Below, in pieces: positions 9,750 through 57,196 of a stretch of DNA of 64,000 nucleotides. Position numbers and translations under genes: made by a program. The notes beneath the pieces are model-generated. The model did not search any database. It was not told where the DNA came from and was given only the letters and a program-made list of their open reading frames with translations. Position 1 is the first letter of the stretch; each line of letters opens with the position of its first letter. The stretch is from Pichia kudriavzevii (taxonomy: Eukaryota; Ascomycota; Pichiomycetes; Pichiales; Pichiaceae), in contig NC_042507.1 of the NCBI RefSeq assembly GCF_003054445.1, forward strand, positions 62,001 through 126,000, written 5' to 3'.

Positions 9750-10958
9750 ATGTCTGAAGAAAATGCAAAAACGATAAAGATGTACAAACCGACGGAAGCG
9801 GATATGAAACACTACTATGAAAATTTTCTTCCCTTTCCTTCAATTTTCACTTGGTTGAATCATTCTAAGGTTCCGAATAATGATTTCACACATCGGGAAT
9901 TTGCATTTGAGCATCAAAATGGAGCTTACCAACGTTATAACTCTTTTCAGGATGCTGCAGAATTTAAAAAGAAGGTTGTCAAGTATAACCCAACTCGTTT
10001 TGAAATCGGTGCAGTGTATCCTGTCGAACCAAAAGATCGTAAAACTGTTGCGAAAAACATGATGAAGCCTTTATCGAAGGAAATGGTTTTGGATATTGAC
10101 TTGACTGATTATGATGAAATTAGAACTTGCTGTAAAGGTACCTCGATTTGTGATAAATGTTGGAAATTCATAACCTTGGCCATTAAGGTTGTAGACGTTG
10201 CAATTAGGGAAGATTTTGGAATTGAAAACAGAATTTGGGTTTTCTCTGGTAGAAGAGGTGTCCATTGTTGGATGAGCGACTCAAAAATCAGATTTTTAAA
10301 GGAAAACGGAAGAAGAGCATTTATTGAATATTTGGATATTCTGAATGTCAAGGGTAAAAGTAAAAAGGGGATATTTGGACTTAAAAAACCTTACCATCCG
10401 CACATTGAAAGATCCTTGGATATTTTGAAAGATCATTTTGTTGATATTATCCTAGAGGAGCAGGGCTCTTGGGATTCTATAGAATCTGGCAGAGAGTTAG
10501 CTCTGTCAATTCCGGATATTAAATTGAGAAATGTATTACTTCAGAAGTGGAAAGATAACAACATATCCAGTACAGACAAATGGGTCGATATTGGCGATCT
10601 ATATAAAGAGCTAGGAATAAATTCATTTGATTTAGTCGACTGGAGAAAGGAAATGATTTTGCAAATGTTATATCCAAGATTAGATGTGGAAGTCTCCAGA
10701 CAGATGAACCATTTGCTAAAATCACCATTTTGCGTGCATCCAGGTACAGGTAATGTTTGTGTTGTATTTGATCCGAATGAAAGAGAATTCAATCCGTTTA
10801 CGGATGCCCCAAATCTACAACAAATTTTTTCTGCTGACGAATTTGAGTGGAAAAATACACCTTTGAAGGATAGTATATTACTTTTTAGAAACTATGTTGA
10901 CAAACTCTTGAAATGTGAAGGTCCAACGAAGAGAGAAAATGACGAGCTGGACTTCTAG
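9750..10958 (+). CDS. PRI1: DNA primase small (catalytic) subunit
   Basis: Catalytic subunit of DNA primase, 402 aa (S. cerevisiae about 409), which makes RNA primers for DNA polymerase alpha at origins and on the lagging strand. The catalytic acidic pair lies in the VLDIDLTDYD segment (Asp115 and Asp117). The zinc-site cysteines are in RTCCKGTSICDKCW (Cys127, 128, 134, 137), and the invariant SGRRGVHCW block is at 166-174. A further conserved HPGTGNVCVVFDP motif lies in the C-terminal third. The start is the first ATG, supported by the conserved N-terminus and the short distance to an MCB site. Confidence 0.96.
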   Translation: MSEENAKTIKMYKPTEADMKHYYENFLPFPSIFTWLNHSKVPNNDFTHREFAFEHQNGAYQRYNSFQDAAEFKKKVVKYNPTRFEIGAVYPVEPKDRKTVAKNMMKPLSKEMVLDIDLTDYDEIRTCCKGTSICDKCWKFITLAIKVVDVAIREDFGIENRIWVFSGRRGVHCWMSDSKIRFLKENGRRAFIEYLDILNVKGKSKKGIFGLKKPYHPHIERSLDILKDHFVDIILEEQGSWDSIESGRELALSIPDIKLRNVLLQKWKDNNISSTDKWVDIGDLYKELGINSFDLVDWRKEMILQMLYPRLDVEVSRQMNHLLKSPFCVHPGTGNVCVVFDPNEREFNPFTDAPNLQQIFSADEFEWKNTPLKDSILLFRNYVDKLLKCEGPTKRENDELDF

Positions 10959-11225: not shown

Positions 11226-12308
11226 CTATACTTTAAAATAGTTGTCATAATTGGTTAAAACAAATCTAAATCTCACGTCTCCCTCGATCATTCTTCTCCA
11301 AGCTCTCTGAACGTTTTCCTCTGAAATATCGAGTGTTTCAATCCATGGCTTAATCTGATTCTCGGAAGCAACCTTCAACATGTACTCAATTTCTTTTGGT
11401 GAACCAATTGTCGAGCCTCCAATAGAAATATTATTAGCAAGAAATACTGCTGAATTTAGAACCAGTCTTTCGTCGCTTGGTGGAGCAGTAATGAATGTCA
11501 TGTTGCCTCCAACGGTTAATAAAGATAGAATTTCTTGAATCGAACCTTCTGAAAAGGAGGAGCCAGTATTAACAATTAGATCCAAAGAATCGACATTTTT
11601 CCTGATTGACTCCTTATCGTCGGTCGAGATATAATTATCGGCACCTAATTTGAAAGCAAGATCTCTTTTTGCGTAGCTTCTAGAAATGGCCGTAACCTCA
11701 GCGCCCAATGCCTTTGCAAATAAAATAGACATATGCCCAATGCCTCCAATTCCATTTACACCTACTTTGCTTCCTGGTTTTACACCTGCAGAAAGTAGGG
11801 GTTTGAATCCAGTTATACCACCACATAGAAGTGGAGCGGCGTCTACAGAGGATAAATTTTCTGGAATCTTGAATGCAAACTCGGAGTTGACCCTGACATG
11901 AGAAGCATATCCACCTTGAGTGGGTTTACCAGAAGGGTAAGAACTTAAATAAGTACCAACAACATTGTGACAATTGTTTTGGTGGCCTTTTATACATCTA
12001 TTGCATTCATGGCAAGAATCACATTGTGCACCAACTCCAACTCTATCACCTACCTTAAATCTAGCACTTGGACCTGCATTAACGACAATACCAACAATTT
12101 CATGGCCAACGGCAAGTGGGGCATACGGTTCACCCCAATCACCATTGGCAGCATGTATATCCGAACCACAAATACCACAAGCTTTGACTTGGATATCTAT
12201 ATCATAAGGTCTTAGCTGTTGGGGTACGTATGCAAATTCCTTCGGGTTCAACCAGTCGCTGTAGTCCTGGACACCTATAGCTCTGATTTCCTTTATCTCA
12301 TTGCACAT
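11226..12308 (-). CDS. ADH6/ADH7-type NADP(H)-dependent zinc alcohol dehydrogenase
   Basis: Medium-chain zinc alcohol dehydrogenase of the cinnamyl-alcohol group, closest in memory to S. cerevisiae Adh6/Adh7, which reduce many aldehydes with NADPH. Visible features are catalytic-zinc CGICGSD and GHEIVG, the four structural-zinc cysteines in CDSCHECNRC, and the cofactor loop GIGGIGHM. The C-terminus GDVRFRFVLTNYD matches Adh6. The start is taken at MCNEIKEIRAIG (ATG at 12308), giving 360 aa like Adh6; an in-frame ATG at 12371 would add 21 residues without family support. It lies head to head with the first sulfonate dioxygenase gene across 522 bases holding three GCCACA motifs. A role in reducing the aldehyde released by sulfonate oxidation is plausible but inferred. 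Confidence 0.9.
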   Translation of the reverse strand: MCNEIKEIRAIGVQDYSDWLNPKEFAYVPQQLRPYDIDIQVKACGICGSDIHAANGDWGEPYAPLAVGHEIVGIVVNAGPSARFKVGDRVGVGAQCDSCHECNRCIKGHQNNCHNVVGTYLSSYPSGKPTQGGYASHVRVNSEFAFKIPENLSSVDAAPLLCGGITGFKPLLSAGVKPGSKVGVNGIGGIGHMSILFAKALGAEVTAISRSYAKRDLAFKLGADNYISTDDKESIRKNVDSLDLIVNTGSSFSEGSIQEILSLLTVGGNMTFITAPPSDERLVLNSAVFLANNISIGGSTIGSPKEIEYMLKVASENQIKPWIETLDISEENVQRAWRRMIEGDVRFRFVLTNYDNYFKV

Positions 12309-12830
12309 TGTAGTTGTTAGTTTTGCCCTTAGCTTTGGTACCTCCACGAAACTAAGTTGATTATGGTGCAATTTTTTTTATATCGAATCTTCTCTATTAT
12401 GTAACAGCTGCATTTGCTCTGAAAAAGTGGTCCAACTCAGTGAGAGAGCCACAAAAGATAATCATCTTAGGAGGAGCAAAAGCCACAGAAATGCCCAAGA
12501 TACTTTTCAGGATAGGAATTGCCTTTTTAGGTAGTTGCCAAAGCTCGAAAAATATTGAAAAGGAGTTGAAACAGCAATTTTGTTTTTCACGAGGTACAGG
12601 AGTTTCTGAGCCGTTTATCAAAGACACCAGGTGCCACACTGTTGGAAACACGGCATGAGATTCTTTCTTGTCAAAACAGTCCTGTAGAAATCAGACCATT
12701 ATGAATTATGTAGAGCTCAAATATGGCTGATGATTCAATGTTATAAAGATGAAGGAAATCCATGAAACGTAAAGACCTACACTTGTATAGTCAATATAAA
12801 CATTTGCAAGGATTGCAACACAAACCCACA
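12309..12830. promoter_or_regulatory. Divergent ADH/JLP1-A promoter with GCCACA motifs
   Basis: Shared upstream region of the alcohol dehydrogenase (minus) and the first dioxygenase (plus). GCCACA, the core of the Met31/Met32 site (GCCACAGTTT in S. cerevisiae), occurs at 12448-12453, 12482-12487 (as GCCACAG) and 12633-12638 (GCCACACTGTT). No CACGTG was seen here. A TATAAA lies at about 12742. Control by the sulfur regulon is inferred from these motifs and the neighbouring genes. Confidence 0.5.
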
Positions 12831-14030
12831 ATGGCAACTTTCCAAAGACTAGATCACGACGCAGCAATCCATTTTGATAAGGATGCAAGCACTGAAACCA
12901 AAGATTATCTGACCATCTCAGAGGACCGCCTCAAGGAATTGAAGTACCCGGAGTGGGCTCCAACCTGGGAGAAAAAGCACGATCACCAGTTTGACCATAT
13001 TCCCGTGTTCAAGCATATTGACAGAGGCTTTTACGGTGATTCTGAGTTCAAGTCCCTTAAGGATGCAGATGGAGTTACTTTCAAGCATGTTTCTCCAAAA
13101 CTAGGCTTGGAAGTCGATGGTATTCAGTTGAGCGATTTGTCGGATAAGCAAAAGGATGACTTGGCCCTATTGGTTGAGACCTACGGTGTTGTTGCCTTCA
13201 GAAACCAAGATTTCAAGAACCAATCTTTTGAAGAGATCAAGGACTGGGGTAGATACTTTGGCCCACTCCATATCCACCCAACATCGGGTGCTCCGCTTAA
13301 CCAACCAGAATTTCATTTGACGTTCACCAAAGGCAGTATTTCTGAGCAAAAGAAGTTGTTCAAAACAAAACTAAATAATATCAGCTGGCATTCAGATGTT
13401 GCTTATGAAAACCAACCACCTGGAATTACGGCTTTTGCTATGTTACAATCTGGTCCTTCTGGAGGTGACACCCAATTCTTGGATATGTTTGAAATATACG
13501 ATAGGTTATCACCATTAATGAAGTCCATTCTTGATGGACTGAGGGCACTAAACACGTCCAGAGATCAAGCAAACGATGCTATTGCGTCTGGTAGTATACA
13601 GAGGAAAAATCCAATTGATTCCATACACCCTGTTGTCAGGTATCACCCGGTTTTGAAAAGAAAATGCTTGTTTGTTAATAGGGGGTTCACTAGACAAATT
13701 TTGGGATTAAAAACAGAAGAAAGCGACTACTTACTATCTTTTCTATTTGATCATATTCAATCATGTTTGGATGCTCATGTTAGGCTTTCGTGGGATGAAA
13801 ATACCGTGGTTGTCTGGGATAACAGAAGAGTCTTACATACACGTACAACTGACTGGGATACAGATGAAATCAGACATGCCTTTAGGGTAACCACTGTAGC
13901 TGAAAGACCTGTTAGTACAAAGGAAGAATACGAAAGCTGGACTCCTGAACTCGAGAAGTCGAATATTAATATCAATGATTTTGTTATTAGTCTCGGACCA
14001 GAAGAGTATTATGAGAAGTTCTATACCTAA
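12831..14030 (+). CDS. JLP1: JLP1-type Fe(II)/2-oxoglutarate sulfonate dioxygenase, copy A
   Basis: TauD-family dioxygenase of 399 aa, like S. cerevisiae Jlp1 (about 412 aa), which oxidises alkylsulfonates such as isethionate and taurine to an aldehyde plus sulfite, so they can serve as sulfur sources. The iron-binding facial triad is visible as His187-x-Asp189 (in WHSDV) and His336 (in RRVLHT); Arg352 in HAFRV is the likely 2-oxoglutarate ligand. The start at 12831 (MATFQRL) is chosen because it aligns with copy B and similarity between the two genes begins exactly there; an in-frame ATG at 12762 would add 23 unsupported residues. The first 503 bases are nearly identical to copy B, after which the two diverge abruptly. 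Confidence 0.9.
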   Translation: MATFQRLDHDAAIHFDKDASTETKDYLTISEDRLKELKYPEWAPTWEKKHDHQFDHIPVFKHIDRGFYGDSEFKSLKDADGVTFKHVSPKLGLEVDGIQLSDLSDKQKDDLALLVETYGVVAFRNQDFKNQSFEEIKDWGRYFGPLHIHPTSGAPLNQPEFHLTFTKGSISEQKKLFKTKLNNISWHSDVAYENQPPGITAFAMLQSGPSGGDTQFLDMFEIYDRLSPLMKSILDGLRALNTSRDQANDAIASGSIQRKNPIDSIHPVVRYHPVLKRKCLFVNRGFTRQILGLKTEESDYLLSFLFDHIQSCLDAHVRLSWDENTVVVWDNRRVLHTRTTDWDTDEIRHAFRVTTVAERPVSTKEEYESWTPELEKSNININDFVISLGPEEYYEKFYT

Positions 14031-15000
14031 TGGAAATTTTCTCATATTTAACATTATCTAACTCCTTGTGTTTTTTTTACTTTCTTGGTCTAAGCTAGGC
14101 CACCTACATCCAAAATGGTTATAATGTTTGGATTACTCTCTCTCTGAGAGATTGATTGATTTCCTTTTTTACTCTTTATGACTTAAAATCTTAACCTTAG
14201 TATATAGAAGAAAAAACTTCTCAACTATAAATACCGCTCTAAATAAAAGCATAACTAGTTATTGATCCTATACCACAGGAGCGTATGTTCACTTGGTTGA
14301 CTGTACAAGGCTACATGACACTTTTTGCGAAAATGGATGGTTGGTGAGGCCATGTCACTACAAGTAAGTGGCTACAGCTTACGTTATCTCTCATTAAAAC
14401 TGGCACGTGCAGTTCTCTCACATATACAGGACCAAACATGTACCTTTTTCTCGGATGTGTGAAAAACCATCTATTAATAAGAGCAACGTGTTTTAAAGTT
14501 TAATTCTGTATGACCGTTGCAACTAAACTTTCCATGGCATTTTTCTCGTCGCCCAAATCCATATGTATGCTACGATTGTTCCCCTGGTATGTTAGAAGGG
14601 GACTTGATGGTTTCAAATGTATATCATGACAAGCTTTCTATAAGACCCTTTTTAGTTAAATAACCATAATTTGATGCCACAGCTCTTCAATAATTTTTTA
14701 AAAAAAAAGAAAAACTGATAACAAGTCGCAACCGCTTTTTTTGGCACATGTGGCTAATATGCCACACTTCCTGATAAGGTAAATGTGGACACTGCTGATA
14801 CAGAACAACTTTGGCTTTATATCCAACGGGGTTTGATGATTATTGAAAGAGAACATAGAACATATGTTTCTAACGAAACAAGAGAATTATAAATAGGGGG
14901 GGGGGGGAGGTGTTCCAGCAATCTAAATTGAGGAAAGGGTATTGCGAGACACTTCTAGGTGCCAGAAAGCAACCTTCGCAAAGGAAGATTAACATACCAA
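14031..15000 (+). promoter_or_regulatory. JLP1-B promoter with CACGTG and paired GCCACA sites
   Basis: This 970-base region between the tandem dioxygenase genes shows no coding signal. It contains a Cbf1-type E-box CACGTG at 14404-14409, GCCACAG at 14676-14682, and a perfect inverted repeat TGTGGC-TAATAT-GCCACA at 14749-14766 formed by two Met31/32-type cores. A TATAAATA box (14888-14895) is followed directly by a run of 12 G (14896-14907). This is the motif set expected of a Met4-dependent sulfur-assimilation promoter; binding is inferred. Confidence 0.55.
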
Positions 15001-16197
15001 ATGGCAACTTTCCAAAGATTAGAATACGACGCAGCAATCCATTTTGATAAGGATGCAAGCACTGAAACCAAAGATTATCTGACCATCTCAGAGGACCGCC
15101 TCAAGGAATTGAAGTACCCGGAGTGGGCTCCAACCTGGGAGAAAAAGCACGATCACCAGTTTGACCATATTCCCGTGTTCAAGCATATTGACAGAGGCTT
15201 TTACGGTGATTCTGAGTTCAAGTCCCTTAAGGATGCAGATGGAGTTACTTTCAAGCATGTTTCTCCAAAACTAGGCTTGGAAGTCGATGGTATTCAGTTG
15301 AGCGATTTGTCGGATAAGCAAAAGGATGACTTGGCCCTATTGGTTGAGACCTACGGTGTTGTTGCCTTCAGAAACCAAGATTTCAAGAACCAATCTTTTG
15401 AAGAGATCAAGAACTGGGGTAGATACTTTGGCCCACTCCATATCCACCCAACATCGGGTGCTCCGCTTAACCAACCAGAATTTCATTTGACGTTCACCAA
15501 AGGTGGGGTTGACGAATATAAAAAGCTCTTCAAAAATAAGTTGCATAATATCGGCTGGCATTCAGATGTGACTTATGAAAACCAACCACCTGGAATTACT
15601 GCTTTCGCTATGTTACAATCTGGTCCTTCTGGAGGTGACACTCAATTCTTGGATATGTTTGAAATATACGATAGATTATCGCCATTAATGAAGTCCAAAC
15701 TAGATGGGCTAAAAACTTTGCATACATCAAAAGACCAGGCGATTAATGCAACCAATTCTGGTGGAATTGAAAGAAAAAACCCTATTGACTCCATCCATCC
15801 TTTAGTTAGGTATCATCCAGTCTTGAAAAGGAAATGTTTGTTTGTTAATAGAGGGTTTTCGAGAAAAATTCTAGGACTAAAGACAGAAGAAAGTGATGCT
15901 TTGCTTTCCTTCTTGCTTAACCATATCGAAGCATGTTTGGATGCACATATTAGGTTGTCATGGGATGAAAATACAGTTGTTGTTTGGGATAACAGGAGAT
16001 TACTACACACCGCTACTGTTGATTGGGACAGTGATGAGATTAGACACGCCTTTAGAGTTACCACTGTTGCTGAAAGACCCGTTGGTAGCGAGGAAGAATA
16101 CGAAAGCTGGACTCCGGAACTAGAGGAAAAAAACATCAAGCTCACAAATTATATTGCAAGTCTGGATCCAGAAGAGTACTACGAGAAATTCAAATAA
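15001..16197 (+). CDS. JLP1: JLP1-type Fe(II)/2-oxoglutarate sulfonate dioxygenase, copy B
   Basis: Tandem paralogue of the preceding gene, 398 aa. The iron ligands are kept (HSD in GWHSDVTYENQ, His in RRLLHTATVDWD) and so is the 2-oxoglutarate Arg in HAFRVTTVAERP, so the enzyme looks functional. Bases 15001-15503 differ from copy A at only about four positions by eye. From 15504 on there are many synonymous and replacement changes, concentrated at about residues 168-185, 235-258 and the C-terminus. Two genes may cover different sulfonates or conditions. The start at 15001 aligns with copy A; an in-frame ATG at 14959 is disfavoured because it is not shared. Confidence 0.9.
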   Translation: MATFQRLEYDAAIHFDKDASTETKDYLTISEDRLKELKYPEWAPTWEKKHDHQFDHIPVFKHIDRGFYGDSEFKSLKDADGVTFKHVSPKLGLEVDGIQLSDLSDKQKDDLALLVETYGVVAFRNQDFKNQSFEEIKNWGRYFGPLHIHPTSGAPLNQPEFHLTFTKGGVDEYKKLFKNKLHNIGWHSDVTYENQPPGITAFAMLQSGPSGGDTQFLDMFEIYDRLSPLMKSKLDGLKTLHTSKDQAINATNSGGIERKNPIDSIHPLVRYHPVLKRKCLFVNRGFSRKILGLKTEESDALLSFLLNHIEACLDAHIRLSWDENTVVVWDNRRLLHTATVDWDSDEIRHAFRVTTVAERPVGSEEEYESWTPELEEKNIKLTNYIASLDPEEYYEKFK

Positions 16198-16663
16198 AGC
16201 TGATTAATCAGTGACTTCTTTGTGAATCATACTCTTTGATATCCCTTTGTGTGTTTATTTTTTTTATAATTTTGCTTAACGAGAATCTGGTATTTTTTTA
16301 GTTTATGTTGTATGTTTTATAATGTCAGCAACCTTTTTATTAGTCGGTCTGATGGGAAAACGTTAATTGAAAAGGTCTTTTTGCGTTTTAAAACTTTATT
16401 TATTTATGGAAAAACCTTATAATTTGTCTCTTTATTTGGGCTCCCGTATAGTTTGACAAAAAAAAAAAACAGCGTGTTGGTAATTATATCTTGATTTTAG
16501 CCATGGGAAAGAAGAATTACTGTTTTTCAGAGATTTCCCTTGATAGCATCAGTTGCAGTAGTATGTGATTTTAAATTCGATATACTAGGCAAAAGTTATA
16601 AACCTATACTTTGGATAAAAAAAGCAGGATAATATTAAATTAAAAAATTAAAAGAATAATAAA
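16198..16663. other. Convergent 3' region JLP1-B/SOA1-like
   Basis: AT-rich interval between convergent genes with several T- and A-tracts suitable for polyadenylation on both strands. No gene or repeat was recognised. Confidence 0.5.
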
Positions 16664-18334
16664 TCAATGGGCATATCTAAAGTCTAATCTATTTGATCCC
16701 TTATCGGTTGTGGTTGCAATATACTCGTCCCGTTCCTCATCAGACATTGCATTCCAAATTTTCTCCCTCTTAATGTTTAGGTAGTGGTAAAAGTATTTGG
16801 TTGCAAGTAAGGTAGGTATCATTAATAATGCAAACGCAAATAAAACTGAATTACCTTTATGATATAGAGGCTTATCATTGGTCCGGTAGACATTTGAAGA
16901 AATAATGGAGCCGGCCTGAACAAACATATTGTAAAGCGAGGCACTAACTGTCCTAGTTTTAATACTTTTAGAATTCCTGGAAGTTGCAGACACCATCATT
17001 GCATGAATGTAGGGAACACTTAAGAGCACAGTCAAAAGTGCATAAGTTTGCCACTTTTCGTAGTAGTTTCCACCCCAGAATCTCAAAACACCGAAACAAA
17101 CTACAGACCATAATGGTTGAATGAGGGCAACACCAAAAATATTATTAACTCGTTCACTGACCCACGTTGTTGACAATAACGTAATAATTTTCAAGACATT
17201 GTAAGGAATACAAAGCAAGTTAGTGTGGAAAGTGCTAAATCCCATGTCCCTAAGTAACAACGTCATATAACTTCCCACTGTACCTTCAGGAATATACGCA
17301 ACAATTCCGATAAAGTACATTGGCCACAAATGCCAATCACTTATAGCCTGAAACAACATTTTAAAGTCCAAACCTTGCCTATTATGCATATCGCCCTTGG
17401 TAGGATCGTCTCTAAGCACTTTATTAACAACAATTTTTTCTTCCCTCTCTGTGAACCAACCTCTTGGATTCCAAGGTTTTTTTGTTTGAACTGGAGAAGG
17501 AACCATCAAAAAGAAGGCAGAAATACCAATCCCAAGTGTCAACAAACCTTCAATCAAGAATAACCACTGCCAACCTGCATGTCCGTGTATTCCCCTCATA
17601 TGTAAAATTCCGTAAGCAATTAGATAGTTAATAATGGTTGTGACATACATGGCTGTCCAAAAGAAAGAAAGTCTAATCGATAGTTCGGCAGAAGTGTAGA
17701 AATACGATAACCACAAGACTAAATCTGGAATGAACCCACCTTCACATAACCCTAACAAGGCTCTGCATGCATAGAAGCTGTGCTTACCATCAAGTTTAAA
17801 CTGACAAATGGTAATGATTGACCATAGGGTCATTTGAATCGGAATCCAAACATCTGCACCCAATCTTTTGGAAACCAACTGGGAGGGCAATTCGGCACAT
17901 AGAAAGCAGATATAGAAAATGGTGTTTCCCGTATTATAGTTGTCTGTAGTCATGTGTAGATCTTTCAACATATTGTCCGAAACAGCCTGGGCCAAATTGC
18001 TTCTATCCATATTCAAGGAAGCAAAGAAAAGGCATGCCATGGCAGTGACAATGAAGTCCAATTTCCACGTAATTCTTCTCTGTTCCTGCTTGGTCCACTT
18101 GAAAGTATGGTCAAGTCTTGACCGACACTCATATTGCGTCTCTTCATACAATTGCACATATTTTTCTCTGAAATTGGCATTCAGGAAAGGATTATTTATA
18201 GACTCTTCCGCTTCATCAGATTCAGATATCACCGATTCATCATAACTTTTAATGTCACCATTCTTGTTGATATCATTGAATTCTGTGAAACTCTCACTCG
18301 AGTGAATGGATACTTGTGATATTCCGTTGACCAT
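16664..18334 (-). CDS. SOA1: Dal5-family anion:H+ symporter, SOA1-like (probable sulfonate/sulfur transporter)
   Basis: Major facilitator of the Dal5 (anion:cation symporter) family, 556 aa, with about 12 hydrophobic segments and an acidic hydrophilic N-terminus of about 90 residues. Family blocks are visible: LDFIVTAMACLFFASLNMDRSNL at the first membrane segment, ELPSQLVSKRLGADVWIP, and ALLGLCEGGFIPD. The long N-terminal tail and overall sequence recall S. cerevisiae YIL166C/Soa1, a transporter of sulfonates and inorganic sulfur anions; within this family, function cannot be read from sequence alone. Its position beside two JLP1 genes and the Met-type motifs in its promoter (18335 on) support sulfonate uptake. 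Allantoate, nicotinate or another anion remains possible. Confidence 0.75.
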   Translation of the reverse strand: MVNGISQVSIHSSESFTEFNDINKNGDIKSYDESVISESDEAEESINNPFLNANFREKYVQLYEETQYECRSRLDHTFKWTKQEQRRITWKLDFIVTAMACLFFASLNMDRSNLAQAVSDNMLKDLHMTTDNYNTGNTIFYICFLCAELPSQLVSKRLGADVWIPIQMTLWSIITICQFKLDGKHSFYACRALLGLCEGGFIPDLVLWLSYFYTSAELSIRLSFFWTAMYVTTIINYLIAYGILHMRGIHGHAGWQWLFLIEGLLTLGIGISAFFLMVPSPVQTKKPWNPRGWFTEREEKIVVNKVLRDDPTKGDMHNRQGLDFKMLFQAISDWHLWPMYFIGIVAYIPEGTVGSYMTLLLRDMGFSTFHTNLLCIPYNVLKIITLLSTTWVSERVNNIFGVALIQPLWSVVCFGVLRFWGGNYYEKWQTYALLTVLLSVPYIHAMMVSATSRNSKSIKTRTVSASLYNMFVQAGSIISSNVYRTNDKPLYHKGNSVLFAFALLMIPTLLATKYFYHYLNIKREKIWNAMSDEERDEYIATTTDKGSNRLDFRYAH

Positions 18335-19795
18335 GGTAGTTTTCTTGTCCGTGGATAGCTACAATATAAATACGCATCAATAGACATTTCTTCAAAAGTG
18401 AAACTCAAAGATATTTATATGACAACTGGTTACAGAACAATTCTGTCCCAATATCTCGAGAGGGTTGTTCAAACACCGAGGTTGGAGTGTGGATTCTTAA
18501 TCTATACACACAAACACCCTCTGAACCTCTCAATTGGGTCAATTGCTCCTTCGCATACACCTTGCAGGATACTTGTGTTCATCTCTCACGTGTCTCTAAT
18601 GAAACTTTCAGCCATAGTAGCCGTCATTGTGGCATTTTTCACTGAGCCACGTTTTACCCTTCGCGTAATATTGTGGCTCCCATTTCAGGAGATCATCATA
18701 TTTCTACCTTGAATACCCTGATAGCAAGAACCAAATCATGCATCTCCTTCAAAACCCTTTCCTTTTATTAGAAGGCTATCAAAGATAATGACCCAGACCC
18801 TCTTTGATGAAATATTAGAAAGACAAGAGGTCCTGCGCCATTATCCACAAGGGAAGTTTAAACTAAATCCACGTGATGAGGTGGGAATCGTCCACACTTC
18901 CCGTGCACCTACTGAAACGATGTAAAACCGTATATGGATAGAAGTGACATAGTTGTCAACTATATCACTTACATATTAATCTGCTCCAAAAAAAACTCAC
19001 TCACATGTCTGATAGACCTACCCGTGTATCCAATAATTGGAAAACTACCAACATGCCGTTCCACCAACCGTTCCTCTGTCAATAAACTCAATGTATCGTC
19101 TTATAGGTTTCAGTTGCAGAGCTGACTGTTCAGCAATGAAATTTACCCTGCTCCTTGCCTGTTTTTCAAGACCCTCAGGACAACTACTGGAGCATCTACT
19201 GAGGTTCCAACAACTTGCCTATTCAAGCAAGATTGCGCAACTACTTTAAATTTTGCCTTATTTTCCCCATGTTTCGCAAAGAGGAAGAAATTAAGGAAGA
19301 CTTTTCCCTTTAGAGACTCTTTCAATAGTCCTCTACATCATGTTGAATATCTTACATAATACGCGTTATCCTTCTCTTTCTGGCAGTTTGTTAAGTTTTG
19401 CCATTAACGGTCAGAAAACGTCCTTTTTCGCAGGGGGGGAGTTTCCGCGAACTGTTTCTATTTGCAGCGTTTCACGATAAGAACAAACAGAGGTGAAACA
19501 ATTGACAAGCATTGGGATTTATCCGTGTATCTCCCTCTCTACAGTACAAGAGTGTCTTAATGGAAGGTGTTGAACATTACCTGTACTTAAGGAACAGAGA
19601 GCTGGCTTCTTTGAGGGGTATGGCACTGCTTCAATTAGAAGCTTATCGATTTTTCCCTTCAAAAGCTTCGGCGCTGTCTATATAAATACCCTCCTGTATC
19701 CTCAAATAAGTGTACTTTATATGCCATCATATTGGTCCCCCCCCTTCAATATATAAAAACAGGAACCAAACTATAAAAAAAAAAAGAAGAAAAGC
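18335..19795. promoter_or_regulatory. Long divergent region SOA1-like/CAR1
   Basis: This 1.46 kb region holds no convincing gene. Close to the transporter lie CACGTG at 18587-18592 and, further out, CACGTGA from 18870, plus TGTGGC at 18628-18633 and 18672-18677 (GCCACA in the transporter's direction), matching a Cbf1 and Met31/32 arrangement. Near the arginase gene are a GATAAG (19476-19481), a candidate Gln3/Gat1 site, and a TATATAAATA box at 19679-19688, about 110 bases before the CAR1 ATG. Small open frames in it lack coding character. Confidence 0.55.
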
Positions 19796-20761
19796 ATGTC
19801 AAGCCCAGTCTATAACCACACAAACAATAAAAGACTAACCCTTATTAAGGCGCCATTCTCTGGTGGTCAAGGTAAAGGTGGTGTTGAAGATGGTCCTGCT
19901 AAATTGATTGAATTTGGCCTGCTAAAGGATATAGAAGCCCTTGGATGGGAGTATACTGTTGAAGATCCACTGTCGGATTTCGATACTGAAGAAATGAAGG
20001 CAGATAAAAGTGACGTTTTCGGGAACTGTAAGAGACCAAGTATGGTTTCCAAGTGTTGTGAAAAGATCTACAAATCTGTCTCAGATGCATATGCTACAAA
20101 GAGCTTCCCATTAACAGTTGGTGGTGACCATGCAATTGGTATGTCGACCATCTCTGCATTTATCCACAACAACCCGGACGGTGGTATCATCTGGGTGGAT
20201 GCCCACGCAGATATTAACACTCCAAGCACGACTGAATCGGGTAACTTGCACGGGTGTCCTGTAGCCTTTGCAATGGGCTTAGAAATTGAAACTTGGCCTC
20301 CACACTTTAAGTGGTTGGCGGAGCTCTCAAACTTTGTCAAGCCAGAACAGATCACATATATCGGTCTCAGAGACGTTGACGCCGGCGAAAAGAAAATCCT
20401 TAGAGACCTCGGTATAACTGCATTTTCAATGTACCATGTCGATAAGTATGGTATTAATGAAGTCGTCCAAAGGGCGATGAAGGCTGTCTGTCCAACAGGT
20501 AAAACCCCTATCCATTTGAGTTACGACGTCGATGGTATTGATCCAATGTACGTTGTAGCAACCGGTACCCCTGTCAGAGGAGGACTCACTCTAAGAGAAG
20601 GTTTGTTCCTTGTTGAAGAAATTGCCCAATCCGGTAATTTGGCTGGTGTTGATATCGTCGAAGTCAACCCTGCACTAGCGTCAACAGAAATGCATATCGT
20701 CGATACCGTTAACACAGGTCTCTCTATTGCCAGATGTGCCTTAGGCGATACGTTGTTATAA
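19796..20761 (+). CDS. CAR1: Arginase
   Basis: Cytosolic arginase, 321 aa (S. cerevisiae 333), splitting arginine into ornithine and urea as the first step of arginine use as a nitrogen source. The binuclear manganese signatures are all present: GGDHAIGMST (about 108-117), WVDAHADINTP (about 133-143) and SYDVDGIDP (about 242-250). The N-terminal FSGGQGKGGVEDGP motif is typical of fungal arginases. CTG at codon 42 (in GLLKD) sits at a conserved leucine, supporting a standard genetic code. The next gene in the same direction is a mitochondrial carrier that may handle ornithine or related amino acids. Confidence 0.97.
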   Translation: MSSPVYNHTNNKRLTLIKAPFSGGQGKGGVEDGPAKLIEFGLLKDIEALGWEYTVEDPLSDFDTEEMKADKSDVFGNCKRPSMVSKCCEKIYKSVSDAYATKSFPLTVGGDHAIGMSTISAFIHNNPDGGIIWVDAHADINTPSTTESGNLHGCPVAFAMGLEIETWPPHFKWLAELSNFVKPEQITYIGLRDVDAGEKKILRDLGITAFSMYHVDKYGINEVVQRAMKAVCPTGKTPIHLSYDVDGIDPMYVVATGTPVRGGLTLREGLFLVEEIAQSGNLAGVDIVEVNPALASTEMHIVDTVNTGLSIARCALGDTLL

Positions 20762-52265: not shown

Positions 52266-53021
52266 TGAAGATTGGCGTATCAATGCCTTAGTATCCCAAT
52301 TTGGAAAACTGTTCACATAGATCAAACAAGTTAATATTTCATGAAAAAAGAAAAAAAAGTCTTGCTAAAAAAATAGAACCGCTTGAACACTGAGGAAAAA
52401 AAAAAAAGAAAAAAAAAAAGCTACTATTTGCAATAAAAGTTCGTAAGCTAACAAAACATATGTCCACAATGTGATATTCTCTTCTCTCTCCTTTCCATTA
52501 GAGTCTGGAGTGAACTGTCAGATAAGAACTACAAAAATAACATATTACCTTATCAGTAATAGTTTAGTGAGTTATGGATACTGCACTTGTGGCAGAGAGA
52601 TAATTCCATGAGATTAATAACTACTGTGGACAGTTCTAGACCTACAGAACAATGACAATGTTATCGTTGAGGAAAGATAGTCCATTTGCTAAAATACCTG
52701 CCCAGATAAACACAATCAGCACAGCTTTTACAAGGATGTGCCACACTCCCAATTAGGTAATCTATCCGGTATTCTCGAATCTGATAGCGACTTACGATTA
52801 TCCGGCTGCAGCTGATAAGATAAGAAAAGAAAAAAAAAAGAAACAGGCTAGAGCCTTAAATAGTATTCCTGTTTTCTGTTCTTATATCACACGGGCACGC
52901 TACGATACCATAATATACTTAGACTATAAGCCAATACATTATCAACTACCAGGCCATTTACTAATATTGTGTCAGTTATTTCATTTGAATAGCTAAAAGA
53001 AAACTATTATTTAGATAAATA
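52266..53021 (+). promoter_or_regulatory. JJJ1/UGA4-A divergent region with GATA sites
   Basis: Divergent promoter region. Several GATAAG motifs are oriented toward the permease: 52521-52526, CTTATC at 52549-52554, and an overlapping pair GATAAGATAAG at 52814-52824, about 200 bases before the permease ATG. Such clusters bind the GATA factors Gln3/Gat1 in S. cerevisiae UGA4 and other nitrogen genes. A purine-rich tract occurs near the JJJ1 start (about 52394-52420). Confidence 0.55.
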
Positions 53022-54686
53022 ATGGAAGCCATAAAATCTGCGACTGGGTTTGCACCCATCACTTCGACAGCATCGAGGTTTCACGAAATATCAGCATTAG
53101 CCTCACCTATTAGAGAGATCGATGCAGTACACGCAGAAGACGACGATGATTTGCTTGCTGAAATCGGATACAAGCCGGAATTGATGAGACGATTCTCCAC
53201 TTTCCAAATTTTCGGTATTGCTTATTCAATTATGGGCATTTTGCCATCAGTGGCATCGTTACTAGGAGACGCGTTGACATCAGGTCCCGCTGGTGCTGTT
53301 TGGTCGTGGGTGATTGCATCATTCTTGATCTTGACGGTGGGAATTGGCATGTCGGAGCTTGCATCTGCTATTCCTACATCAGGAGGATTATACTACTGGA
53401 CATACTATTATGCACCAGATTCTGTTGCCGTTCCGTTGTCTTTTGTTATTGGCTTATCCAATACACTAGCCCTTTGTTCAGGTACGGTTTCTGTGTTTTA
53501 TGGATGTGCACAAGAGGTCCTTGCGGCTGTGTACTTGACCAACAATGATTTTGTTATTACAGATGGTAAAACGTATGGAGTGTTTGCAGGCTGCATATTT
53601 ACAGGTGCATTGGCAACTTGCGTCTCGTCAAAGAATGTTGCGTTCCTACAAACATTGTCGTCTGCATGCCACACAGGATTGCTAGTTTTGTTTCTCATTG
53701 CATTACCAATTGGTACCAAGATCAACAGAGGCGAGTTTAACAGCCGTGGATTCATCTTTGGCGATGTTCAAAACTATTCTGATTGGACTACAGGATGGCA
53801 ATTCTGTCTATCTTTCATGACAGCCGTTTGGACTATTGGAGCCTTTGACTCATGTGTCCATATGTCAGAAGAGGCGAAGAATGCCACGCACGGTGTTCCA
53901 ATTGGCATCTGTGGAGCAATATCTGTGTGTGGGTTATTAGGATTTGTTATTTTGATTTGTGTGTGTGCATGCATGAATCCAGATATTGAAACTATTTTAG
54001 CTACCGATACAGGGTTCCCCATGGCACAAGTCATTTATGATTCACTAGGAAACAAGTGGGCAATTGCATTCATGTCGTTAATGGCGGTATGCCAATGGCT
54101 AATGGGAGCATCGTTAGTCACCGCATCGTCGAGGCAAATTTGGGCATTTGCAAGAGACAATGGATTACCTTTTGCCGAAATTTTTAAAGTCGTTAACAAA
54201 AGAATGAAAGTCCCACTCAGGGCAGTTGGATTAGCAGGTCTAATATCATTAGCAATTGGATGTTTATGTCTTGCCGGAAGTACCGCCGCCGGTGCATTGT
54301 TTTCACTAGGTGTTTGTGGTAACTATCTTGCATGGTGTACACCTATTTTCCTCAAATTAGTTTTTGGAAAAGATAAATTCAAGCCCGGTGCTTTTTATTT
54401 GGGTAAAATTCTTTCCTCAATAAATGGTTGGATTGCTTGCGCTTGGGGCGCTTTTATTATCATTCTTGCTTGTTTCCCCTCTTCTAAGCACGTTGATAAA
54501 ACAACCATGAACTATGCAAGCGTGATCACTGGCGGTTGTTGGATTTTGTCAATTGTTTTTTTCTTCACCTATAAATACAAATATTACCATGGCCCTAGAA
54601 GTAACTTGGAGGATCCTATTCAAGACACTAGCTCTGAATCTGAACTCATTAAGCTTTCCGCAAATGAGAAAGCTGACATGGCCTAA
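53022..54686 (+). CDS. UGA4: UGA4-type GABA permease, copy A
   Basis: APC-superfamily amino-acid permease of 554 aa with about 12 membrane segments, similar over its length to S. cerevisiae Uga4 (571 aa), the vacuolar/plasma-membrane GABA and 5-aminolevulinate permease. Matching blocks include DDLLAEIGYKPELMRRFST, IFGIAYSIMGILPS, IPTSGGLYYWTYYYAP, AVWTIGAFDSCVHMSEEAKNA and KTTMNYASVI. Bases 53022-54298 are almost identical to copy B, then the last 388 bases diverge. Its C-terminal tail (SSESELIKLSANEKADMA) differs from copy B and may give different turnover. Substrates other than GABA (choline, polyamines) are possible. Confidence 0.88.
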   Translation: MEAIKSATGFAPITSTASRFHEISALASPIREIDAVHAEDDDDLLAEIGYKPELMRRFSTFQIFGIAYSIMGILPSVASLLGDALTSGPAGAVWSWVIASFLILTVGIGMSELASAIPTSGGLYYWTYYYAPDSVAVPLSFVIGLSNTLALCSGTVSVFYGCAQEVLAAVYLTNNDFVITDGKTYGVFAGCIFTGALATCVSSKNVAFLQTLSSACHTGLLVLFLIALPIGTKINRGEFNSRGFIFGDVQNYSDWTTGWQFCLSFMTAVWTIGAFDSCVHMSEEAKNATHGVPIGICGAISVCGLLGFVILICVCACMNPDIETILATDTGFPMAQVIYDSLGNKWAIAFMSLMAVCQWLMGASLVTASSRQIWAFARDNGLPFAEIFKVVNKRMKVPLRAVGLAGLISLAIGCLCLAGSTAAGALFSLGVCGNYLAWCTPIFLKLVFGKDKFKPGAFYLGKILSSINGWIACAWGAFIIILACFPSSKHVDKTTMNYASVITGGCWILSIVFFFTYKYKYYHGPRSNLEDPIQDTSSESELIKLSANEKADMA

Positions 54687-55531
54687 CTGAATAGTGTAGC
54701 TTGATTTTTTTTATACCTGTTTCTGTCGTCTACTCATGAAATTACTGAAATGTCTGAAAAACATCAGGCATGTGTGTTTTGACGGTTTCTCACTAAAAAG
54801 GGTATTCGTTATTCTGGTAGGAAGAGACTCCAACCTAGTTCATAAAACGAGCTCACTTAGTTTTGTCCTTGTTTTTAAAAATCATATCTCTACCCTTGCT
54901 GTATTACGTTGTCCTTCATATCCTACCACGCGGAGCACAATTCTAGAGGCACATGTTCCTACTTTGCACTGTGCAGCTTCAAAATAGCCATCTTTTTATC
55001 TGTAATATCTATCTGAAATCCCTGCGCGGAATTAGCTTCCTTATCTGGATATTCAAAAATCCGGTTTGAGAAGGATAGGCACACATACCAAATTTAGCCA
55101 AATAGTTGACAGCTAGTGATGCGCATCCGTATTGTTGTTAAATGCATTCTTATCTCTTGAACAAATAACATTGCTAAATATCTTTAGGCATTGGTGGATT
55201 AACCTGTTTTCGTGAAGTCAGCGGGTAATTTTTAGTTGTTATTCCTATATGTTCTAGATAGTCGCTTAAAAATAGGTTTTACCACGGGAAATTGCAAGGT
55301 CTGGTAGCGTAGAATAAAAGTTTCTTTGATAAGATATTTCTCTGATATCTGAATGAACAAGTATGTGCAGAAATAAGATGGTTTATAATCAACCACATGG
55401 GTATTCTGGCGGCTTATAAATAACATTGGTAATATTTCCAAAGTAATTTTTCAAATGTTTCTTCGATTTATATACTGTTTCACCTTATTCGAAGCCTTCA
55501 AAATTGAGTATACTGCCATACAAGCTATAAT
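54687..55531 (+). promoter_or_regulatory. UGA4-B promoter
   Basis: This 845-base region between the tandem permeases shows no credible gene. GATA-type motifs occur as CTTATC at 55040-55045 and 55149-55154 and GATAAG at 55328-55333. A CGGGTAA (Reb1-like) lies at 55222-55228. It shows no similarity by eye to the copy A promoter; homology starts at the ATG. Confidence 0.45.
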
Positions 55532-57196
55532 ATGGAAGCCATAAAATCTGCGACTGGGTTTGCACCCATCACTTCGACAGCATCGAGGTTTCATGAAATA
55601 TCAGCATTAGCCTCACCTATTAGAGAGATCGATGCAGTACACGCAGAAGACGACGATGATTTGCTTGCTGAAATCGGATACAAGCCGGAATTGATGAGAC
55701 GATTCTCCACTTTCCAAATTTTCGGTATTGCTTATTCAATTATGGGCATTTTGCCATCAGTGGCATCGTTACTAGGAGACGCGTTGACATCAGGTCCCGC
55801 TGGTGCTGTTTGGTCGTGGGTGATTGCATCATTCTTGATCTTGACGGTGGGAATTGGCATGTCGGAGCTTGCATCTGCTATTCCTACATCAGGAGGATTA
55901 TACTACTGGACATACTATTATGCACCAGATTCTGTTGCCGTTCCGTTGTCTTTTGTTATTGGCTTATCCAATACAATGGCCCTTTGTTCAGGCACGGTTT
56001 CTGTGTTTTATGGATGTGCACAAGAGGTCCTTGCGGCTGTGTACTTGACCAACAATGATTTTGTTATTACAGATGGTAAAACGTATGGAGTGTTTGCAGG
56101 CTGCATATTTACAGGTGCATTGGCAACTTGCGTCTCGTCAAAGAATGTTGCGTTCCTACAAACATTGTCGTCTGTATGCCACACAGGATTGCTAGTTTTG
56201 TTTCTCATTGCATTACCAATTGGTACCAAGATCAACAGAGGCGAGTTTAACAGCCGTGGATTCATCTTTGGCGATGTTCAAAACTATTCTGATTGGACTA
56301 CAGGATGGCAATTCTGTCTATCTTTCATGACAGCCGTTTGGACTATTGGTGGTTTTGACTCATGTGTCCATATGTCAGAAGAGGCGAAGAATGCCACGCA
56401 CGGTGTTCCAATTGGCATCTGTGGAGCAATATCTGTGTGTGGGTTATTAGGATTTGTTATTTTGATTTGTGTGTGTGCATGCATGAATCCAGATATTGAA
56501 ACTATTTTAGCTACCGATACAGGGTTCCCCATGGCACAAGTCATTTATGATTCACTAGGAAACAAGTGGGCAATTGCATTCATGTCGTTAATGGCGGTAT
56601 GCCAATGGCTAATGGGAGCATCGTTAGTCACCGCATCGTCGAGGCAAATTTGGGCATTTGCAAGAGACAATGGATTACCTTTTGCCGAAATTTTTAAAGT
56701 CGTTAATAAGCAGATGAAAGTCCCACTCAGGGCAGTTGGATTAGCAGGTCTAATATCATTAGCAATTGGATGTTTATGTCTTGCCGGAAGTACCGCCGCC
56801 GGTGCATTATTTGCTCTTATGGTGTGTGGTAACTATCTTGCATGGTGTACACCTATTTTCCTCAAATTAGTTTTTGGAAAAGATAAATTCAAGCCAGGAT
56901 CATTTTATCTGGGCAAAGTGCTTTCCACAATAAATGGTTGGATAGCGTGTGCTTGGGGTGTCTTTATTACCATTGTTGCTTGTTTCCCCTCTTCTAAGCA
57001 CGTCGACAAAACAACCATGAATTATGCGAGTGTTATCAGTGGTGGTGTCTGGATATTGTCAATCATATTTTTCTTCACTTACAAGTACAAACACTATCAT
57101 GGTCCAAAAAGTAATTTGGATGATTCTGCTATAGATGGAAGTTCTGATGCAGAGTCTGTAAAACTCCCTCTCCATGAGAAGTCAGACATCGTTTGA
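55532..57196 (+). CDS. UGA4: UGA4-type GABA permease, copy B
   Basis: Tandem paralogue of the preceding permease, also 554 aa. By eye about a dozen base differences from copy A occur in the first 1277 bases, giving replacements such as Leu/Met and Ala/Val in the middle, Ala/Gly in TIGGFDSC, and Arg/Gln in VNKQMKV. From 56809 the two separate: GALFALMVCG versus GALFSLGVCG, several conservative changes in the last membrane segments, and an unrelated-looking acidic tail (DDSAIDGSSDAESVKL). All family motifs are kept, so it should be functional. The promoter has its own GATA sites. Confidence 0.88.
   Translation: MEAIKSATGFAPITSTASRFHEISALASPIREIDAVHAEDDDDLLAEIGYKPELMRRFSTFQIFGIAYSIMGILPSVASLLGDALTSGPAGAVWSWVIASFLILTVGIGMSELASAIPTSGGLYYWTYYYAPDSVAVPLSFVIGLSNTMALCSGTVSVFYGCAQEVLAAVYLTNNDFVITDGKTYGVFAGCIFTGALATCVSSKNVAFLQTLSSVCHTGLLVLFLIALPIGTKINRGEFNSRGFIFGDVQNYSDWTTGWQFCLSFMTAVWTIGGFDSCVHMSEEAKNATHGVPIGICGAISVCGLLGFVILICVCACMNPDIETILATDTGFPMAQVIYDSLGNKWAIAFMSLMAVCQWLMGASLVTASSRQIWAFARDNGLPFAEIFKVVNKQMKVPLRAVGLAGLISLAIGCLCLAGSTAAGALFALMVCGNYLAWCTPIFLKLVFGKDKFKPGSFYLGKVLSTINGWIACAWGVFITIVACFPSSKHVDKTTMNYASVISGGVWILSIIFFFTYKYKHYHGPKSNLDDSAIDGSSDAESVKLPLHEKSDIV

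Follow-up and report, generated by a model that had tools for sequence, protein, structure and literature searches.

A putative sulfur-regulated organosulfonate scavenging module in Pichia kudriavzevii: a linked JLP1-type/SOA-type gene pair beside an Adh6-type dehydrogenase

Do four neighbouring genes of the yeast Pichia kudriavzevii, encoding an alcohol dehydrogenase (ADH), two dioxygenases and a transporter, serve one pathway of sulfonate utilization? The question arises from a stretch of 64,000 nucleotides (the window; C2:62001–126000 in a genome of 10.79 Mb on five contigs). An original prediction, made from its sequence, had proposed that the transporter imports sulfonates, the dioxygenases release sulfite and an aldehyde, and the dehydrogenase removes the aldehyde. 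The four genes (ADHa, JLPa, JLPb and SOAa) and the motifs in their promoters are real; the open reading frames (ORFs) were found where they had been placed, and their Pfam families agree. ADHa and JLPa are divergent, while JLPb and SOAa are convergent. The JLP1-type/SOA-type pair is a genuine linked module, and a sulfur-regulated organosulfonate scavenging module is a probable reading of the whole. The joint interpretation is only partly supported: its core is sound and its dehydrogenase part is tentative.

The convergent pairing is repeated in the same genome. A second pair on the same chromosome comprises SOAb (C2:536829–538502, +) and JLPc (C2:538857–540062, −), with 354 base pairs (bp) between them. 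SOAb and JLPc are 84% and 71% identical, respectively, to their counterparts in the window; DNA similarity between the two pairs was detectable in coding regions only. SOAa/SOAb and JLPa–JLPb/JLPc each group at 100 in the Shimodaira–Hasegawa-like approximate likelihood ratio test (SH-aLRT) in separate trees, that of the dioxygenases built from 60 of 120 matches plus the copies of the genome itself. Given matching sister groups in both trees, the pair was probably duplicated as a unit in this lineage. Synteny in relatives was inferred by eye from locus tags and equal-sized contigs among the 120 matches listed for each of SOA, JLP and ADH. Among these, P. inconspicua has consecutive tags for a JLP (CANINC_004330) and two SOA genes (CANINC_004331 and CANINC_004332) on a 227356-base contig. 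Contig sizes of 405279, 61475 and 9355 bases are each listed for both a SOA and a JLP match, indicating linkage; the SOA and JLP of the 9355-base contig group with Brettanomyces in both trees. Two contigs of B. naardenensis (1746572 and 579175 bases) hold SOA and JLP with tags 632 and 82 apart, and were not scored as linkage. The JLP1-type/SOA-type pairing originally proposed is thus borne out by a second convergent copy, by co-duplication in trees and by linkage elsewhere. A chance neighbourhood of genes without common function would suit the mostly unclustered order of yeast genes and the flanking of the block by a primase small subunit gene (9750–10958) and an arginase gene (19796–20761). 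Set against repeated convergent pairing, linkage indicated in other Pichiaceae and motif enrichment common to the promoters, it is very improbable for the block, and for the JLP–SOA pair it is rejected in view of the second pair, co-duplication and motifs.

The cluster promoters carry sulfur-type motifs. GCCACA, which with the original prediction we take to be a Met31/32-type site, was found three times in 12309–12761 (453 bp), three times in 14031–15000 and twice in 18335–19795, and CACGTG zero, one and two times, respectively; the claim of GCCACA in all three upstream regions and CACGTG in two therefore stands. Expectations were derived from 24.3 kb of other intergenic DNA, with 800 bp taken for the SOAa promoter. 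GCCACA was observed 8 times against 0.60 expected, ranking first of 1148 hexamers, and 0 of 500 dinucleotide shuffles reached 8. Enrichment of CACGTG was weaker (3 against 0.41 expected, rank 21), with one of 500 shuffles reaching 3. Neither motif occurs in the convergent gap between JLPb and SOAa, where no promoter is predicted. The nine paralogous promoters (all paralogous JLP, SOA, C3 and C1 genes, the latter two described below) contain GCCACA 17 times against 1.46 expected (rank 1 of 1595 hexamers; 9 of 9 promoters), the promoter sets having been drawn up after the motif counts had appeared. At least two GCCACA were present in 3 of 16 other Dal5-family upstream regions. Three other carrier genes of this family with two to three GCCACA upstream (L023, L026 and L027) may be further sulfur-compound carriers. 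Eight sulfate-pathway controls were counted on fixed 800-bp upstream stretches, which may overlap neighbouring genes, and named by Pfam family, so that the sulfate-family permeases need not all carry sulfate; MET14 has two GCCACA, and CACGTG occurs 5 times against 1.18 expected. By their motifs, the cluster promoters appear to be of the Met4/Met31-32 sulfur-regulon type, with sites common to MET and sulfate-uptake genes. Met32 binds the Candida albicans genes JLP11, JLP12 and SOA1, whose expression rises on sulfur deprivation (available excerpt of PMC13170222), and Komagataella JLP1-1 is induced up to 35-fold when sulfur is short (available excerpt of PMC5504661). The accessible portions of PMC11502921 and PMC7441637 support, in general terms, that genes of this kind are under sulfur control, and contain nothing on JLP–SOA linkage.

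Table 1. Features of the four-gene block, in window coordinates.
Feature	Position	Strand	Description
ADHa	11226..12308	-	Adh6-type medium-chain zinc alcohol dehydrogenase, NADPH type by sequence; Pfam ADH_N + ADH_zinc_N
ADHa/JLPa common divergent promoter	12309..12830	.	GCCACA at 12448, 12482, 12633
JLPa	12831..14030 (probable start; ORF from 12762)	+	Jlp1/TauD-type Fe(II)/2-oxoglutarate dioxygenase; Pfam TauD
JLPa side of tract common with JLPb	12856..13333	+	478 bp, single mismatch at 13242; gene-conversion-like
JLPb promoter	14031..15000	+	GCCACA/TGTGGC at 14676, 14749, 14761; CACGTG at 14404
JLPb	15001..16197	+	Second Jlp1/TauD-type dioxygenase; slower-evolving copy; Pfam TauD
JLPb side of tract common with JLPa	15026..15503	+	478 bp
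JLPb–SOAa convergent gap	16198..16663	.	466 bp; no GCCACA, no CACGTG
SOAa	16664..18334	-	Dal5-family major facilitator superfamily (MFS) transporter, Soa1/Soa2 clade; Pfam MFS_1
SOAa promoter	18335..18900	-	TGTGGC at 18628, 18672; CACGTG at 18587, 18870

SOAa falls in with proteins annotated as Soa1/YIL166C-like and stands away from the other members of the Dal5 family. Among its 120 listed homologues one is at 100% identity and the other 119 at 52–84%, including a Saccharomyces uvarum 'Soa1-like' protein (P0030, 59%) and Kluyveromyces marxianus YIL166C (55%). The 18 other Dal5-family members scored in its own genome are only 21–28% identical. Transporter trees were built from 46 and 29 of the 120 matches plus own-genome copies. 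The SOAa group was split from eight own-genome Dal5-family members at support 100, and the careful tree placed SOAa in a Pichia clade (100/100) inside Pichiaceae. Solved structures yielded no SOAa relative at E 0.001. Orthologue tests generally gave no or poor growth on taurine (Holt et al., PMC5303821, in the text available). S. uvarum is the only named Saccharomyces among the listed matches (P0030), and S. uvarum, S. eubayanus and S. arboricola are the sole members of Saccharomyces with an intact SOA2 (Holt et al., PMC5303821, in the text available). For these two reasons the nearest Saccharomyces relative of SOAa is probably Soa2 rather than Soa1, an indirect placement; S. cerevisiae Soa1 and Jlp1 are in none of the trees. 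The label 'SOA1-like' thus holds at the level of the Soa1/Soa2 clade, where the tree separates SOAa from its own-genome relatives, and probably gives way to Soa2 within it. The S. uvarum protein (probably Soa2) and Zygotorulaspora mrakii proteins (P0030, P0019, P0036) nest inside Pichiaceae (97/98). A clade of these proteins with K. marxianus YIL166C, a group picked after the first tree, was rejected (approximately unbiased test, p 0.0001). This nesting may reflect horizontal transfer or hidden paralogy.

Both dioxygenases match Pfam TauD (E 3.1e-60 and 3.5e-58). No variation was seen at the equivalents of TauD H70, H99, D101, T126, H255, R266 and R270 across an alignment of 20 sequences, three JLP1-type and five more distant copies from the genome itself among them. 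These residues comprise the Fe(II) facial triad (JLPa H187, D189 and H336 for TauD H99, D101 and H255) and the residues that we take to bind 2-oxoglutarate and the sulfo group (JLPa T214, R348, H149 and R352 for TauD T126, R266, H70 and R270). These catalytic residues fit the earlier assignment of two Jlp1-type 2-oxoglutarate dioxygenases, and from the families of the proteins sulfonate transport and desulfonation are the predicted functions. For JLPa and JLPb alike, the best-scoring NCBIfam model is that of taurine dioxygenase (149.7 and 148.2 bits, though far under its cut-off of 313), and TauD (E 4.3e-29) comes ahead of AtsK (E 1.1e-17) among the solved relatives of JLPa. Both results speak against a main action on alkyl sulfate esters, in which AtsK-like enzymes would release sulfate and the transporter would import sulfate esters or inorganic sulfur. 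We regard this alternative as unlikely, even with TauD-family enzymes able to act on sulfate esters (PMC5857272, in the portion available) and Soa family members taking up choline sulfate, sulfate, sulfite and thiosulfate as well as sulfonate (Holt et al., PMC5303821, in the text available). Translation of JLPa probably starts at 12831, since most Pichiaceae JLP1-type homologues in the alignment begin level with the MATFQ methionine at that position; 12762, probably an upstream in-frame ATG, was judged an unlikely start. Rows reaching beyond 12831 are P0149, P0179, JLPc, Komagataella and Wickerhamomyces, and metagenomic P0121 is predicted from 12762.

JLPa and JLPb share a tract, unmentioned in the original prediction, that is alike but for one mismatch (Table 1). 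After the tract, agreement between the two copies drops to 24 of 40 in the block immediately preceding the metal-binding WHSD, then is 37–39 of 40, and is again low (21 of 40) in the segment aligned to TauD 149–166. Of the 77 silent codon changes, 76 are found beyond codon 160; the remaining one is right at the start. A near-identical 5′ tract with silent changes mostly confined to the later codons bears the mark of gene conversion, by which the 5′ parts appear to have been homogenized. Whichever of the three outgroups is used, JLPb evolves slowly and JLPa and JLPc evolve fast (relative-rate counts of 20–22 against 6–9 for JLPa versus JLPb in the C-terminal part, and of 50–53 against 8–13 for JLPc versus JLPb). 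An assembly error behind the shared tract is unlikely, since two named P. kudriavzevii proteins show both N-terminal types. P0170 has a JLPa-like N-terminus and is identical to JLPa across 271 aligned residues; P0122 has a JLPb-like N-terminus and is 98% identical to JLPb across 380 residues. Both entries, however, have internal stretches missing and appear to be mis-spliced. In P0121, from a contig of 1991 bases, the N-terminal part of JLPa is followed by the C-terminal part of JLPb; this may be a natural fusion by unequal crossover, or the assembly may be chimeric.

That ADHa acts as an aldehyde reductase is at most chemically plausible, and this step finds little support. Its best solved relative is 1piw (333 bits; zinc-type ADH-like protein of the PRE5-FET4 region), which we take to be Adh6. 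ADHa keeps the Zn-ligand motif and an SRSYAK segment, whose SRS..K pattern we take to denote the NADPH type. In the ADH tree (65 of 120 matches plus own-genome copies) it is sister to a tandem ADH pair on C4 (74%; SH-aLRT 99), a position that makes it a lineage-specific duplicate, and it evolved faster than the C4 pair in five of five outgroup comparisons (p<0.05 in three). The tandem ADH genes at C4:889759–893604 (L047) encode identical proteins from differing DNA, another sign of homogenization. There is an even chance that the JLP–SOA pair alone is a functional module and that ADHa, a duplicate of Adh6 type, is unrelated to it and merely came to lie next to JLPa, its promoter common by position. 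Its origin in the P. kudriavzevii lineage as a duplicate of the C4 genes would suit such a history, and on general grounds flux through a sulfur source should yield little aldehyde. No ADH adjoins the second pair on C2, and the sole P. inconspicua ADH among the 120 listed lies on a 65764-base contig, apart from the 227356-base contig with JLP and SOA, so that the four-gene set looks recent. Pulling the other way, the catalytic motifs of ADHa are intact, and its 453-bp region shared with JLPa holds three GCCACA, assignable to neither gene alone; at least two are present in 0 of the 11 upstream regions of other ADH genes. Two Brettanomyces species have an ADH match 8 and 15 locus tags from a JLP match in the lists; this is weak support, because the ADHs in question fall with Brettanomyces in the tree, away from ADHa. 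An ADH on a 313248-base jgi contig may belong to the same organism as the 405279-base JLP/SOA contig.

In the scavenging reading that we prefer, sulfur shortage would lead Met31/32-type factors at GCCACA, with Cbf1-type sites (CACGTG) at two of the three promoters, to turn the genes on. SOAa would bring in sulfonates by proton symport. With Fe(II), O2 and 2-oxoglutarate, JLPa and JLPb, probably with different substrate ranges, would hydroxylate the carbon adjacent to the sulfur. The hydroxylated product would break into sulfite, feeding the sulfite reductase branch, and an aldehyde, which ADHa, on its promoter common with JLPa, may reduce with NADPH.

Several observations weigh against this reading. 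CACGTG occurs once in the nine paralogous promoters against 1.01 expected, which is chance level. In the eight sulfate-pathway promoters GCCACA ranks third only (10 against 1.71 expected; 6 of 8 promoters), with none in MET16 and one sulfate-family permease; it had ranked first in an initial control set of MET3 and two permeases, which omitted two permeases, MET16 and MET5/10 (all eight being reached with MET14 added). SOA and JLP are not adjacent in P. californica, Ogataea philodendri, [Candida] arabinofermentans, B. nanus and B. naardenensis among the matches listed, and outside its linked set P. inconspicua carries one more SOA (004154) and one more JLP (004959). Of an ADH–JLP–SOA linkage in Pichiaceae, the JLP–SOA part is indicated in P. 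inconspicua and three other contigs, and linkage of ADHa was not seen in the relatives listed. The taurine amine pocket, which we take to be TauD Y73, D94 and N95, is not conserved. Y73 is replaced by S in JLPa and JLPb and by R in JLPc, and D94 by N in JLPa and by H in JLPb and JLPc; N95 is kept in JLPa and JLPb and is K in JLPc. With Y73 and D94 not kept, a non-taurine substrate or a broad range is likely, and taurine may be a poor substrate of JLPa and JLPb. This argues against strict taurine specificity, not against Jlp1/TauD family membership. C. albicans used taurine unimpaired when Soa1 or either of two related transporters was inactivated, and only one of five JLP mutants failed on it, under hypoxia (available excerpt of PMC13170222).

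JLP1–transporter linkage has been published for other fungi, and the Pichiaceae arrangement is therefore a variant of a known one. The published pairs are reportedly divergent, going by the title of a 2008 study by Kensche et al. Escherichia coli tauABCD likewise combines import with 2-oxoglutarate-dependent desulfonation for sulfur, using an ATP-binding cassette importer and an operon, not an MFS carrier and separate promoters. ADHa is closest to the Adh6 type (S. cerevisiae Adh6/Adh7) among solved structures; Adh6/7 are not known to be linked to sulfonates or to the sulfur regulon. Basidiomycota and Eurotiomycetes have a Jlp1-type dioxygenase next to a Soa-type transporter (PMC5303821 and PMC6901960, in the text available); unlike these, the P. 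kudriavzevii pair is convergent, lies in Pichiaceae, is duplicated as a pair and has an ADH alongside. A cluster on Cryptococcus neoformans chromosome 11 (CNAG_01498–01542) is similar in holding a sulfonate/sulfur transporter and two taurine dioxygenases, and differs by an arylsulfatase and a ChaC gene, with no ADH mentioned in the accessible portion of the paper (PMC6901960). S. cerevisiae JLP1 and SOA1/SOA2 encode an enzyme and carriers of the same families. There, JLP1 and SOA1 are on separate chromosomes (PMC5303821, in the text available), unlike the linked P. kudriavzevii genes and as the original prediction had said. The clustering it called notable is so against S. cerevisiae, and less so given the clusters described for Eurotiomycetes, Basidiomycota and Cryptococcus (same two sources). 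JLP–SOA linkage in Pichiaceae was found nowhere described in the literature searched, most subscription journals lying outside it.

Further loci of related type are present in the genome. A third, organosulfur-like cluster at C3:377794–391043 (L044, L045) comprises a flavin monooxygenase (−), four tandem TauD-family dioxygenases and two Dal5-type MFS carriers. Its dioxygenases are 36–37% identical to JLPa, and each upstream region contains one to four GCCACA. A single further dioxygenase of the C3 type lies at C1:1567549–1568886. Within the window, two tandem AA_permease_2 genes at 52266–57196, which we presume may be of the methionine-permease (MUP) type, follow a 756-bp region with two GCCACA. 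Tentatively, the window block can be seen as a growing cluster. The JLP–SOA pair would have been copied as a unit and one JLP doubled in tandem, with gene conversion keeping the 5′ parts alike while the pre-metal-site and TauD 149–166 segments diverged. A lineage-specific Adh6-type duplicate would then have been recruited under a divergent sulfur promoter for aldehyde or sulfo-aldehyde. Counting the C3 locus and the C1 gene, the yeast would then possess at least eight dioxygenases dividing the substrates among them, an organosulfur toolkit spread over several loci.

The JLP1–transporter pairing described as lost in Ascomycetes (PMC6901960, citing Holt, in the text available) is present twice in one Pichiaceae yeast and indicated in others. 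The locus offers a compact test bed for sulfonate use by yeasts, where one could also ask which substrates the paralogous Jlp1 enzymes accept and whether the pathway includes clearance of the aldehyde.

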